Source of the DNA: Armatimonadota bacterium
GTDB taxonomy: Bacteria > Armatimonadota > Hebobacteria > CAIYQO01
Assembly (NCBI GenBank): GCA_029553475.1
Contig: JAKPKV010000053.1
Location: forward strand, 1 to 56,323
Reading direction: 5' to 3'
Length of the DNA stretch: 56,323 nt
The position numbers and the translations under genes were made by a program. The first letter of the stretch is position 1. The number at the start of each line of letters is the position of its first letter. Shown piece after piece: positions 3,814 to 11,651 of this stretch. The notes under the pieces were generated by a model. The model saw nothing but the letters and a program-made list of their open reading frames with translations. It had not been told where the DNA came from and did no database searches.

Positions 3814-4857
3814 ATGCGCTGGTTCGGCTTCGGCACCGCCTTGGGCATCGATCTGGGCACCTCGAACGTGTTGGTGTATCAGCACGGGCGCGGCATCGTG
3901 CTGCGCGAACCGGCGGTGGTGGCGGTGACGCGCAGCGAGGGCAAGCTGGCGGCCATCGGCGAAGAGGCGCGCCAGATGCTGGGCCGCACGCCGGGCAACA
4001 TTCACGCCGTCAGCCCGCTGCAGGCCGGCGTGATCGCCAACTACAGCGTGGCGACGGGCCTGCTGCGCCACCTCATCAACCGGCTGTGCGGCCGCGGACG
4101 GCTGGTGCACCCGGACGTGGCCATCTGCCTGCCCTGCGCCGCCACCGGGGTGGAGCGCCGGGCGGTGCTGGATGCCGCGCATGACGCCGGCGCGCGCCGC
4201 GTCTACCCGCTGCTGTCGCCGGTGGCGGCCGCGCTGGGTGCCGCGCTGCCCGTCACCCAGCCGCAGGGGCACCTGGTGGTCGATATCGGCGGCGGCACCA
4301 CCGACATCGCCGTCATTTCGCTGGGCGGTATGGTCACCGGCGGCGCCGTACGCGTGGGGGGGCAGAACTGCGACGACGCGATCATCCGCTACCTGCGCCG
4401 CGAATACAACCTGCTGGTGGGCGAGCATATGGCGGAGGAGGTGAAGCTGCAGATCGGCTCCGCCGAGCGCCTGGAACACGAGATGACCATGGAGGTGCGC
4501 GGGCGCGACCTGATGGACGGCCTGCCGCGCACCGTGCGCCTGCGCAGCGAGGAGATCCGCGACGCGCTGGCCGAGCCCCTCACCGCCATCAGCGACAAGA
4601 TCCGTCAGGTGCTGGAGCGTACCCCGCCCGAATTGGCCGCGGATATCATGGAGCGCGGCATGGTGCTGGCGGGCGGCGGGGCGCTGCTGCGCCGCATCGG
4701 CCGCTTCATCACCCGCCGTACCAACGTGCCCACCCGCCAGGCGGACGATCCCCCCTCCTGTGCCGCGCTCGGCGCCGGCAAGTACCTGGAGACGCTGCGC
4801 CGCACGGATGGCGCGTGGGAGCCGGCGGCGCCGTCGGTGACGGGGCGGCGGGAGTAG
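3814..4857 (+). CDS. MreB-like actin-family protein
   Basis: 347 residues, the usual MreB length. The actin-fold ATPase motifs are present: phosphate 1 (GIDLGTSNVLVY, from residue 11), phosphate 2 (VVDIGGGTTDIAVISLGG) and the adenosine motif GMVLAGGGALL near residue 280. MreB polymerises under the membrane and guides cell-wall synthesis, through a short hydrophobic N-terminus like the MRWFGFG here. The usual partners mreC and mreD are not adjacent; a large membrane protein follows instead. It could be the main MreB or a second paralogue. Confidence 0.88.
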   Translation: MRWFGFGTALGIDLGTSNVLVYQHGRGIVLREPAVVAVTRSEGKLAAIGEEARQMLGRTPGNIHAVSPLQAGVIANYSVATGLLRHLINRLCGRGRLVHPDVAICLPCAATGVERRAVLDAAHDAGARRVYPLLSPVAAALGAALPVTQPQGHLVVDIGGGTTDIAVISLGGMVTGGAVRVGGQNCDDAIIRYLRREYNLLVGEHMAEEVKLQIGSAERLEHEMTMEVRGRDLMDGLPRTVRLRSEEIRDALAEPLTAISDKIRQVLERTPPELAADIMERGMVLAGGGALLRRIGRFITRRTNVPTRQADDPPSCAALGAGKYLETLRRTDGAWEPAAPSVTGRRE

Positions 4858-5008: not shown

Positions 5009-6523
5009 ATGGACAATCCAGAGATCATGCCTGATCCTGTCGCGGCGCCGCGCCGGCGCGCGCCGGCGCGGTCGCCGGTGTGGGCGGCGGCGGGGGCGTG
5101 CCTGCTGTATCTCGTCTTCTTCGCGGTCATGACGGCGTTCAACCAGTACGCCGCGGCGCATCCGGTGACGCTGCCGCTGGCCGGGTGGATGGGGATGGCG
5201 GTGCTCACCACGGTGGGGTATCTGCTCATCCTCATGCACGCGATCCGCCAGTTGTGCCGGGTGCCGCTCTCCGCGCGGGCGGAGGGCTGGCTGACGCTCG
5301 GCTTCCTCCTGCTGTTTCTCGTCGTGAATCCGCTGACGTGGGAAATCGTCCGCCTGCTGGGGCAGGGGGCGTCGCTGGAGGAGATCTTCGCGCGGATGAC
5401 GAAGCCGGACATGAGCCTGCTGGCGGAAGTGGTGGTGCCGTTCCTGCTCATTCTCACCGGCGTCTTCGGCGGACGGCTGCTCTCGCGGGTGGTGCGCGAG
5501 TGGGGCATGCTGCTGCCGGTGGGCCTCATCGCCGGGATGATTGATTTTTGGGGCGTCTACTGGGGGCCGGTGCACGTGGCCACCACCCGGGCCGCGGAGG
5601 CGGTGAGCGGTCTCGCCACCGCGACCACCGCGGCGGCCGCCGTGCCGGAGGAGGTGAAGGCGCAGGTGCCGCGGAGCCTCGCCTTCCTGGTGAACCTGCA
5701 GCCGCCGCAGAATATCGGCATCGGCGACTTTGTGTTCGTCGCCTTCTTCCTCGCCTGCGCCGTGCGCTTCTGGCGTTCCGAGCGGCGGTCCGCCTGGGGC
5801 ATCTTCACGGGCTTGCTGCTCGCCTGCGTGCTCTTCGCCATCGAAGGCACCACCGTCGTCGGCCTGGATCTCCGTTTCGACTATCTCCCCGGCCTGCTCT
5901 TCATCTGCGGCGGCCTGCTGCTGGCGAACTGGGGGCGCTGGCAGCTTACGCGGCAGGAATGGGTGATGACCGGCGTGCTGGTCGCCGTGCTCGGCGGATG
6001 CATCGGCGTGGCCGCGATACAGGCGGAGATGAACAAGCCGCGGGTGAGCCGTTCCGTGCTGCGCGCGCCGCTCGGCACTGACCGCGACATCCTCGAGCGC
6101 GCCTTCCGCGCCGTCTCCCGCGACAGCCTGGCGCCGGCCACGCTCGCGCCGAAGGAGCTGGTCTGCGTCTACACGCGTACCGCCGGCGGCGAAACGCTGG
6201 AGCACTTCCGCCTGCGCCTGGAGGCCTACGACGACGCCAGGCCGAACGTCTCCTGGCACTATCTCGTGCAGGGAGAGCGGACAGAGACGGAGTGGCTCAT
6301 CGGGCTGGACGGCACGCGCTCGCGCCGGACGGAGCCGGATGACCGGGCGCGCATCCGCGAACCGGGCATTCCGGCGACGTATACCGTCATCCTCGCGCAG
6401 ATCGCCGCCTACAGCGCCGGCGTGCAGGACGGCCAGCGCTTCGGCGTCCGCTTCGTGCCGGAGCAGGCGCAGATCGGCGATGACACGCGGATACTGAAGA
6501 CGCTGAAGTATCCGGCGCCGTAA
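5009..6523 (+). CDS. Multi-pass membrane protein with presenilin/SPP-like GxGD motifs
   Basis: 504 residues. About nine hydrophobic segments (near 27-45, 57-80, 93-113, 138-157, 166-187, 235-255, 264-285, 291-307, 318-337) precede a soluble C-terminal tail of roughly 160 residues. Three motifs match the order seen in intramembrane aspartyl proteases: an aspartate in IDFWGVYWGP (D179), NIGIGDF (D240), and LPGL at 293-296 at the start of a later helix, where the family has PAL. The 61-residue spacing between aspartates and about 54 residues from D240 to the third motif are close to those of archaeal presenilin homologues. Assignment rests on motifs alone; the helix count before the first aspartate is one short and one extra helix follows. 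The tail is unrecognised. It could instead be an unrelated membrane protein. Confidence 0.5.
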   Translation: MDNPEIMPDPVAAPRRRAPARSPVWAAAGACLLYLVFFAVMTAFNQYAAAHPVTLPLAGWMGMAVLTTVGYLLILMHAIRQLCRVPLSARAEGWLTLGFLLLFLVVNPLTWEIVRLLGQGASLEEIFARMTKPDMSLLAEVVVPFLLILTGVFGGRLLSRVVREWGMLLPVGLIAGMIDFWGVYWGPVHVATTRAAEAVSGLATATTAAAAVPEEVKAQVPRSLAFLVNLQPPQNIGIGDFVFVAFFLACAVRFWRSERRSAWGIFTGLLLACVLFAIEGTTVVGLDLRFDYLPGLLFICGGLLLANWGRWQLTRQEWVMTGVLVAVLGGCIGVAAIQAEMNKPRVSRSVLRAPLGTDRDILERAFRAVSRDSLAPATLAPKELVCVYTRTAGGETLEHFRLRLEAYDDARPNVSWHYLVQGERTETEWLIGLDGTRSRRTEPDDRARIREPGIPATYTVILAQIAAYSAGVQDGQRFGVRFVPEQAQIGDDTRILKTLKYPAP

Positions 6524-9207: not shown

Positions 9208-10005
9208 CTACGCGGGGGGACCCACGATACGCGCCGCGGTATCGTGCCAGATGCGGCAGCACAGGCCGTCATCGAGTTTCAGCGTATCCATGACGATCGC
9301 GTAGTCGTTGACAACGTCGGCGATGGCGGGGGAGGCGACGTCGCTGCCGAAGACAATCTTCGCCCAGGCGTCGCTGCGGTCGGGCGCGGCGTAGGGGCCG
9401 TCGGCCTTCCACCAGAGCAGCTCACCGAGGAAGGCGGGGCGGCGATATTTCAGCAGCGAGCCGGACAGGTCGAAGTAGAGATTCGGATTCCAGCGGCAGG
9501 CCATGGCCGCTTCCTCGGGCCACGGATTGCCGAAGTGCGCGCCGATGAGCGTCAACTCCGGCAGGCATCGCGCGAGGTGATCCAGGTGGATGGCGCGCAT
9601 CAGGTTGCTGTCGCAGTCCTGATACCCCGGCGTGTTCGCCACGATGCCCAGGTGGAAGAGCACCGGCAACTGCAAGTCCGCCGCGCGCTCGTACAGTGGA
9701 AAATAGCCGGGATCATTGTAGGCGCGCTTCGGCCCGATGCACTTCACGCCGGTGAAGCCGACATCGCGCGCCCGCGTGATGGCATCCGGCCCATCGGCGT
9801 CCATATCCACGCCGTACCAGGCGCGGAAGAGCGTGGGGTACGCCCGCGCCGCCGCCAGCGTCAACGCGTTATCGCCCGGCACCCGGCTCTCCGGCTGTCC
9901 GAGAATGACGGCGGTGACGATGCCGGCATCCCGGCAGGCCTGCACGCGGGCGTCCAGCCCATCGGGGGTGGGGGCGTGCTGGTGCAGATCAATGATGGGC
10001 ATCAT
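9208..10005 (-). CDS. Amidohydrolase-family (TIM-barrel) metal-dependent hydrolase
   Basis: 265 residues of the amidohydrolase_2 type. Metal-binding features are HQH near the N-terminus (DLHQHAP), a lysine in GVKCIGPK, FHLG, GAHFGNPW and the late aspartate in FGSDVASP. The family includes decarboxylases and lactone or amide hydrolases; the substrate cannot be told from sequence. The start is well supported by GAGGAG six nt before ATG 10005. It lies 10 nt downstream of a metallo-beta-lactamase-fold hydrolase gene, so the two are probably one transcript. No signal peptide, so cytosolic. Confidence 0.85.
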   Translation of the reverse strand: MMPIIDLHQHAPTPDGLDARVQACRDAGIVTAVILGQPESRVPGDNALTLAAARAYPTLFRAWYGVDMDADGPDAITRARDVGFTGVKCIGPKRAYNDPGYFPLYERAADLQLPVLFHLGIVANTPGYQDCDSNLMRAIHLDHLARCLPELTLIGAHFGNPWPEEAAMACRWNPNLYFDLSGSLLKYRRPAFLGELLWWKADGPYAAPDRSDAWAKIVFGSDVASPAIADVVNDYAIVMDTLKLDDGLCCRIWHDTAARIVGPPA

Positions 10006-10015
10006 GGTTGGCTCC

Positions 10016-10651
10016 TCATTCCTCCATCTCGTCGGCGTGCGCCAGCCATGTCTCGCGGCCGATGGTGGTGTCTGGGCCGTGGCCGGGGTAGACGCGCGTC
10101 TCAGGCGGCAGCGCGCGCAGGCGGAGAAGGCTGTGGACCATCCGCGCGGGATCGCCGCCGGGGAAGTCGGTGCGGCCGTAGGTGCCGGCGAACAGGATGT
10201 CGCCGCTGAAGAGCACCCCCTCGTCCGCGCTATACAGGCAGATGCCGCCGGGGGTGTGGCCGGGGGTGTGCAGCACGGTGAAGATGCGCGTGCCCACCAC
10301 CACCGCGTCGCCGTCTTCCAGCAGCCGCGCCGGCGTCACCGGCGTCAGCGGCAGCGGCAGGTTGAAGGGCGCGGTGGAGGGGTGTTCCAGCATCTCGGCG
10401 TCCAGCGGGTGACAGGCCACCGGCGCCCCGAACGCCTCGCTCAGCGAGGCCGCGCCCATGCTATGGTCCCAGTGCCCGTGGGTGCAGATAATCTCGCGCA
10501 CGACCACGCCGGCCTCGTCCGCCAGCGCCAGCATCGCCTCCGTCACCTGCCACGGCGCGTCAATGATGATCGCCGCGCCGGCGTCTACGTCGGCCACGAG
10601 GTAGCAGTTCGTCTCCAGCGGCGCGCCCGGCACCACACGTATCGTGAGCAT
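10016..10651 (-). CDS. Glyoxalase II-like metallo-beta-lactamase-fold hydrolase
   Basis: 211 residues. It begins MLTIRVVPGAPLETNCYLV, the usual first strand of glyoxalase II-like proteins. The zinc motif is THGHWDHSMG, followed by HTPGHTPGGI, FSGDILFAGTYGRTDFPGG and the late histidine in YPGHG. These bind one or two metals and hydrolyse thioesters or related bonds. The start at 10651 has GGAGG six nt upstream; a CATACT element lies just before that, so the leader may be very short. It is divergent from the ComEC-like gene and upstream of the amidohydrolase. Confidence 0.9.
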   Translation of the reverse strand: MLTIRVVPGAPLETNCYLVADVDAGAAIIIDAPWQVTEAMLALADEAGVVVREIICTHGHWDHSMGAASLSEAFGAPVACHPLDAEMLEHPSTAPFNLPLPLTPVTPARLLEDGDAVVVGTRIFTVLHTPGHTPGGICLYSADEGVLFSGDILFAGTYGRTDFPGGDPARMVHSLLRLRALPPETRVYPGHGPDTTIGRETWLAHADEMEE

Positions 10652-10697
10652 ATCGTGCCTCCAGTATGCTGTATTCTTGCATTTCCTCCCCGGCTTT

Positions 10698-10715
10698 CCC
10701 TGCCGTTTGGCAGGG
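10698..10715. promoter_or_regulatory. Hairpin in the divergent intergenic region
   Basis: A perfect 7-bp stem (CCCTGCC / GGCAGGG) with a GTTT loop lies 33 nt before the ComEC-like start and 46 nt before the oppositely oriented hydrolase. It could act in mRNA or as a protein-binding site. Confidence 0.35.
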
Positions 10716-10748
10716 ATACCAGCCCTCCGCGCCCAATTCTTGTCAGTG

Positions 10749-11651
10749 ATGGAAGCTCTGCGCGAGTGGATGCGACGAATACGGACGGTGGCGCCGGAGC
10801 GGTATGTCTTGCTGGGGCTGCTGCTGGCGGCGGCCGCGCTCTGGACGGCCATCCTGCTGCTGCCGCCGCCGGCGCTGGAGGTGACGGCGTTCGCGGTGGG
10901 AGAGGGGGACGCGCTGCTCATCCGCGCGCCGTCGGGGCGGGCGCTGCTCATTGACGGCGGCAGCCGCACGCTGCCGGACGTCGGCGCGCGCGTGCTGGCG
11001 CCGAATTTGCTGCTGGCGGGCGTGCGCAAGCTCGACGCCATCCTCATCACCCACCCGGACAGCGACCATATCAACGCACTGCCGGCGGTGCTGAACACGC
11101 TGCCGGTGGACATGCTGCTCGACCCCGATCTGCCCTGCGAGACGGATACCTATCGTCGCCTGCTGGCGAAGGCGGAGCAAAAACGCGTGCCGCGCTACCG
11201 CGTGCGCGCCGGCGACACGCTGAACCTGGGGAGCGGCGTCCAGCTGCGCATCCTCGCCCCCGCCGAGCAGCTCGTCGGGGGCGGGGAAGATAACGAGAAC
11301 TCGGTGGTGTGCCTGCTGGAGATGAAGAACGCGCGCATGCTCTTCACCGGGGACCTGGAAGGCGCGGGCGAAACGGCGCTGCTGGAACGCGGCGCGGATG
11401 TGCGCGCCGATGTGCTGAAAGTGGCACACCACGGCAGCCGGAACGCCACCAGCGAGGCATTCCTGGCGGCGGTGGACCCCACCTGGGCGCTCATCAGCAC
11501 CCGCGGCGACGCGAGTCGCGACCTGGCGCCGGTGATGGCGCGGCTGCGCAAGCGCGGGGTGCAGGTGCTGCGCACCGACGCCCATGGGCAAATTCGCCTG
11601 CGGACGGACGGCCAGCGGTGGCGGGTGACGACATTTCTCCAGGGCGAGTAG
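10749..11651 (+). CDS. ComEC/Rec2-like metallo-beta-lactamase domain protein, membrane-anchored
   Basis: 300 residues from ATG 10749. One membrane segment (about 19-37) anchors a metallo-beta-lactamase domain of the ComEC C-terminal type: AVGEGDALLI, LLIDGGS, ITHPDSDHINAL, FTGDLEGAGE and LKVAHHGSRNATS. The channel domain of ComEC is absent, so this is the stand-alone hydrolase form, probably outside the membrane. Such proteins are suspected nucleases or phosphodiesterases, but the substrate is unknown. The frame extends upstream to 10644, overlapping the divergent gene; 10749 gives the sensible anchor. Endonuclease III follows after 15 nt. Confidence 0.82.
   Translation: MEALREWMRRIRTVAPERYVLLGLLLAAAALWTAILLLPPPALEVTAFAVGEGDALLIRAPSGRALLIDGGSRTLPDVGARVLAPNLLLAGVRKLDAILITHPDSDHINALPAVLNTLPVDMLLDPDLPCETDTYRRLLAKAEQKRVPRYRVRAGDTLNLGSGVQLRILAPAEQLVGGGEDNENSVVCLLEMKNARMLFTGDLEGAGETALLERGADVRADVLKVAHHGSRNATSEAFLAAVDPTWALISTRGDASRDLAPVMARLRKRGVQVLRTDAHGQIRLRTDGQRWRVTTFLQGE

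Follow-up and report, generated by a model that had tools for sequence, protein, structure and literature searches.

Results

The window analyzed here, the whole stretch of 56,323 nucleotides of Armatimonadota contig JAKPKV010000053.1, encodes a polytopic membrane protein of 504 residues downstream of an mreB gene (Table 1). The protein has a membrane core carrying three short motifs and a C-terminal domain predicted to lie outside the membrane. A sequence-only reading had proposed that the motifs form the signature of GxGD intramembrane proteases, and its coordinates, reading frame and residue numbers are exact. The two aspartates, D179 and D240, are 61 residues apart, and D240 is followed 54 residues later by P294. 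On its own, the protein has no match over cut-off in Pfam, NCBIfam or PDB sequences, and single-sequence searches of phage and plasmid records and viral contigs also found nothing useful.

Table 1. Features of the presenilin/SPP-like gene and its neighbor (window positions)
Position	Strand	Feature	Residues	Supporting observation
3814..4857	+	mreB gene, upstream neighbor		PF06723, E 5e-129
5009..6523	+	CDS, presenilin/SPP-like polytopic membrane protein	504 aa	
5075..6034	+	membrane core, nine helices in the AlphaFold2 model	23-342	presenilin is the best structural match for residues 60-313
5540..5569	+	motif 1, first putative catalytic Asp, helix 5	I178-D179-F-W-G-V-Y-W-G-P187	V183 119/125, G186 119/125
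5717..5728	+	motif 2, second putative catalytic Asp, start of helix 6	G237-I-G-D240	aligned by HMMER to presenilin-1 GLGD
5885..5896	+	motif 3, PAL-like, start of helix 8	L293-P-G-L296	aligned to presenilin ALPAL
5957..5959	+	conserved Glu in the predicted cytosolic loop after the PAL helix	E317	
6041..6520	+	C-terminal soluble domain, predicted outside the membrane	345-504	weakly Mog1/DcrB/PsbP-like, Z up to 6.0; no Pfam match

The gene belongs to a family found in nearly every genome of the phylum. A search of the window's own genome and 60 relatives found it in 45 of these 61 genomes, and a profile built from 28 members (A1) found it in 268 of 291 Armatimonadota genomes and 152 of 156 genera, usually as a single copy. 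No second copy was found in the window genome above chance level. Most members have about 260-350 residues, and the extra 160-residue C-terminal domain, which the sequence-only reading had noted, is confined to the three genomes of the window's own family.

One sequence with these motifs could be chance, but across 125 distinct homologues it is not. Both aspartates are invariant (125/125), as are G155 and G237, while F243 is conserved in 124/125, E317 in 123/125, L296 in 120/125 and P294 in 119/125. The only charged columns conserved at 95% or more are the two aspartates and E317. The second motif is GxGD in 89 members and GxAD in 36. The third is PAL in 54, PGL in 35, PLL in 19 and PVL in 5, with P-x-L in 114 of 125. 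One lineage has AAL or GAL in place of PAL, and one genome holds two tandem copies, the second with PAL. The aspartates are 43-61 residues apart, and the Pro lies 43-54 residues from the second Asp. In one genome, the family gene (9831-10781 of locus L057) appears frameshifted after the GxAD motif; a further part of the profile (258-309) matches in another frame. The residue before the first Asp is V, A, I, M, F, T or L (mostly V, A or I) and never Tyr, so the literal YD of presenilin and SPP is absent.

Family profiles, unlike the window sequence, pick out presenilins among 177,635 PDB sequences. Profile A1 returned six matches, the first five being presenilin-1 and -2 (best E 0.0005), with GiGDFlF...alPgL aligned on GLGDFIF...ALPAL. 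The 120-member profile A4 gave presenilin-1 at E 0.002 and presenilin-2 at 0.066, followed by an unrelated weak match at 0.13, and a subfamily profile, A5, returned only presenilins, at E 0.022. These profiles share members and are not fully independent. No single sequence tried reached a presenilin in PDB. However, one member, L144, passes the gathering score of Pfam PF04258 (Peptidase_A22B), with 25.0 bits against 23.3 (E 1.8e-5), over its residues 155-258, from the first Asp motif to just before the PAL motif. This was its only Pfam match at E up to 1. It was the only locus over that cut-off among 291 genomes, with two further family genes scoring below it, and the window protein itself has no such match. 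None of 61 genomes had a match over cut-off to PF01080 (Presenilin) or PF06550 (archaeal SPP).

The AlphaFold2 model of the window protein (pLDDT 82) has nine membrane helices plus a mixed C-terminal domain. Foldseek on this full model was dominated by the C-terminal domain and gave nothing useful. VIA-align listed presenilin for the top 11 entries, with Z 8.2-10.6 over 151-194 residues at 3.5-4.1 A, followed by unrelated matches to the C-terminal domain at Z 6.0. A shorter relative of 293 residues was therefore folded with 120 aligned sequences (pLDDT 90.7, pTM 0.87), placing the equivalent aspartates, D156 and D202, on helices 5 and 6. Foldseek ranked presenilin-1, SPPL2a, PSH and presenilin-2 in places 1-15, with probability 0.96-1.00 for 13 of them, although at modest E-values of 0.007 to 0.18. 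The 24 best VIA entries are all presenilin-1, presenilin-2, SPPL2a or PSH, Z 9.3-15.0, and the next unrelated fold is at 5.0. Z under about 13 can reflect a common arrangement of helical bundles, but the top 13 entries exceed this value and the gap to the next fold is wide. The PAL helix is in register, as model residue 265 pairs with PSEN1 452 and P246 lies 187 residues below PSEN1 P433, the same offset. Among viral models the best match, by two orders of magnitude, is a giant-virus signal peptide peptidase.

The models have four helices before the Asp helix, then the GxGD helix, one more, the PAL helix and a further C-terminal helix. Structural alignments start at helix 2 and end just after the PAL helix, so helices 1 and 9 have no partner and some presenilin helices have none here, although this mapping is provisional. 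The loop between the aspartates (187-235), described as long and hydrophilic in the sequence-only reading, is only mildly polar and is modelled as short helices. Lys+Arg are high in the N terminus and in the 2-3, 4-5, 6-7 and 8-9 loops, and low in proportion to length in the others. By the positive-inside rule, this puts the N terminus inside and the loop between the aspartates outside.

Gene neighbors differ between lineages. In 20 of 39 loci, leuS (TIGR00396 in the one tested) lies directly downstream on the same strand, in some followed by comEA and comEC. In 8 loci, a response regulator lies upstream in the opposite direction. The mreB gene, which the sequence-only reading had noted, is adjacent only in the window's own family, with hisF before it in the window and in one other of the three genomes. 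The window genome has two other full-length mreB genes.

Discussion

The fold predicted for this family, together with the invariance of its motifs, supports the proposal that it is related to presenilin and signal peptide peptidase. We consider it probable, with high confidence, that the window protein is a bacterial intramembrane di-aspartyl protease of the presenilin/SPP fold. In this model, inferred from motifs and predicted structures and without a measured distance between the aspartates or any activity data, D179 on helix 5 and D240 on helix 6 form the catalytic pair and activate a water molecule, while the PAL-like start of helix 8 helps to shape the active site and hold the substrate. 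SPP and presenilin have opposite membrane orientations, and SPP cuts type II segments (PMC7366577). The predicted orientation of this family is that of SPP. The enzyme therefore most likely cuts type II (N-in) transmembrane segments, such as cleaved signal peptides or short membrane-anchored fragments, as a housekeeping activity.

Presenilin is the best structural and profile match (Z 15.0), sharing GxGDF(x)F and PAL in register. However, the family has no long loop between the aspartates, which are 128 residues apart in presenilin-1, and its predicted orientation is the opposite one. SPP and SPPL (MEROPS A22B) share two Asp in adjacent helices, GxGD, a PAL-like motif and the predicted orientation of the active site, with a structural match to SPPL2a at Z 13.3 but only 15-17% identity in the structural alignment. 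They differ in motif 1, which here is mostly [VAI]D, in the helix inventory, in the 29% of the family with GxAD, and in the C-terminal domain of the window protein. Archaeal PSH/MCMJR1 and archaeal SPP are stand-alone prokaryotic proteins of similar size, with structural matches at Z 12.3 (4y6k) and 12.1 (4hyg), but have a different helix inventory. We therefore describe the family as a divergent bacterial branch that works like presenilin/SPP, and not as a member of PF04258 or PF01080.

The GxAD variant falls in four or five clades with at least three changes on a FastTree tree. The equivalent alanine, which in presenilin is the familial-Alzheimer mutation PSEN1 G384A, lowers the rate in archaeal MCMJR1 and in presenilin without abolishing activity (PMC2947513). 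That tolerance fits the G/A-only variation seen here.

A presenilin-fold protein that is not a protease, in which the aspartates serve another role such as proton or ion handling, would also be compatible with the GxAD variants and the few members with AAL or GAL. We consider this unlikely, as both aspartates are invariant together with the third motif, the pattern expected of a catalytic site. Coincidence in an ordinary polytopic membrane protein is refuted in practice. The motifs are short and the window protein alone matches nothing, but their invariance, the profile hits to presenilin, the A22B hit in a relative and the clean structural gap leave very little room for it. A divergent type IV prepilin peptidase (A24) is equally improbable. 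A24 enzymes also use GxGD and appear to be the usual bacterial proteases of this kind, and the genome carries an A24 gene, so such substrates are likely present. However, that gene is a separate one on another contig, the window protein has no PF01478 match at E up to 10, and a PAL-like third motif is conserved. FlaK and PilD were not among the structural matches, which are presenilin/SPP, although this does not exclude them. A24 aspartates lie in soluble regions separated by several helices (PMC2947513), and here they are on adjacent helices.

It remains possible, though less likely, that the protein is a true protease with a dedicated regulatory substrate, for example in the release of a transcription or shape factor. 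The recurrent response regulator and mreB neighbors in some lineages are in line with such a role. Conversely, the neighbors differ between lineages, leuS being the commonest, and the gene is near-universal and mostly single copy, which suggests housekeeping. Signal-peptide clearance need not depend on this protein, as SppA is also present in most of the genomes tested, and an inverse relation with SppA was not seen.

Presenilin-type proteases have been studied in eukaryotes and archaea, and a published account argues for archaeal roots of SPP and presenilin (Raut et al. 2021). Neither Pfam nor NCBIfam labels the family, and no paper mentioning Armatimonadota together with presenilin or intramembrane protease was found in a literature search that covered few subscription papers. 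It is tempting to speculate, with even chances in our view, that the family is a third, bacterial branch of the superfamily, ancestral to and near-universal in Armatimonadota, with its own helix layout and a naturally occurring GxAD active site in several clades, acting as a housekeeping signal-peptide-type intramembrane protease. A phylum-wide bacterial family that the standard databases miss would change the picture of where the class occurs and how small an active core can be. It would also give bacterial proteins of about 300 residues, some with a natural counterpart of an Alzheimer mutation, that should be practical to express in E. coli.
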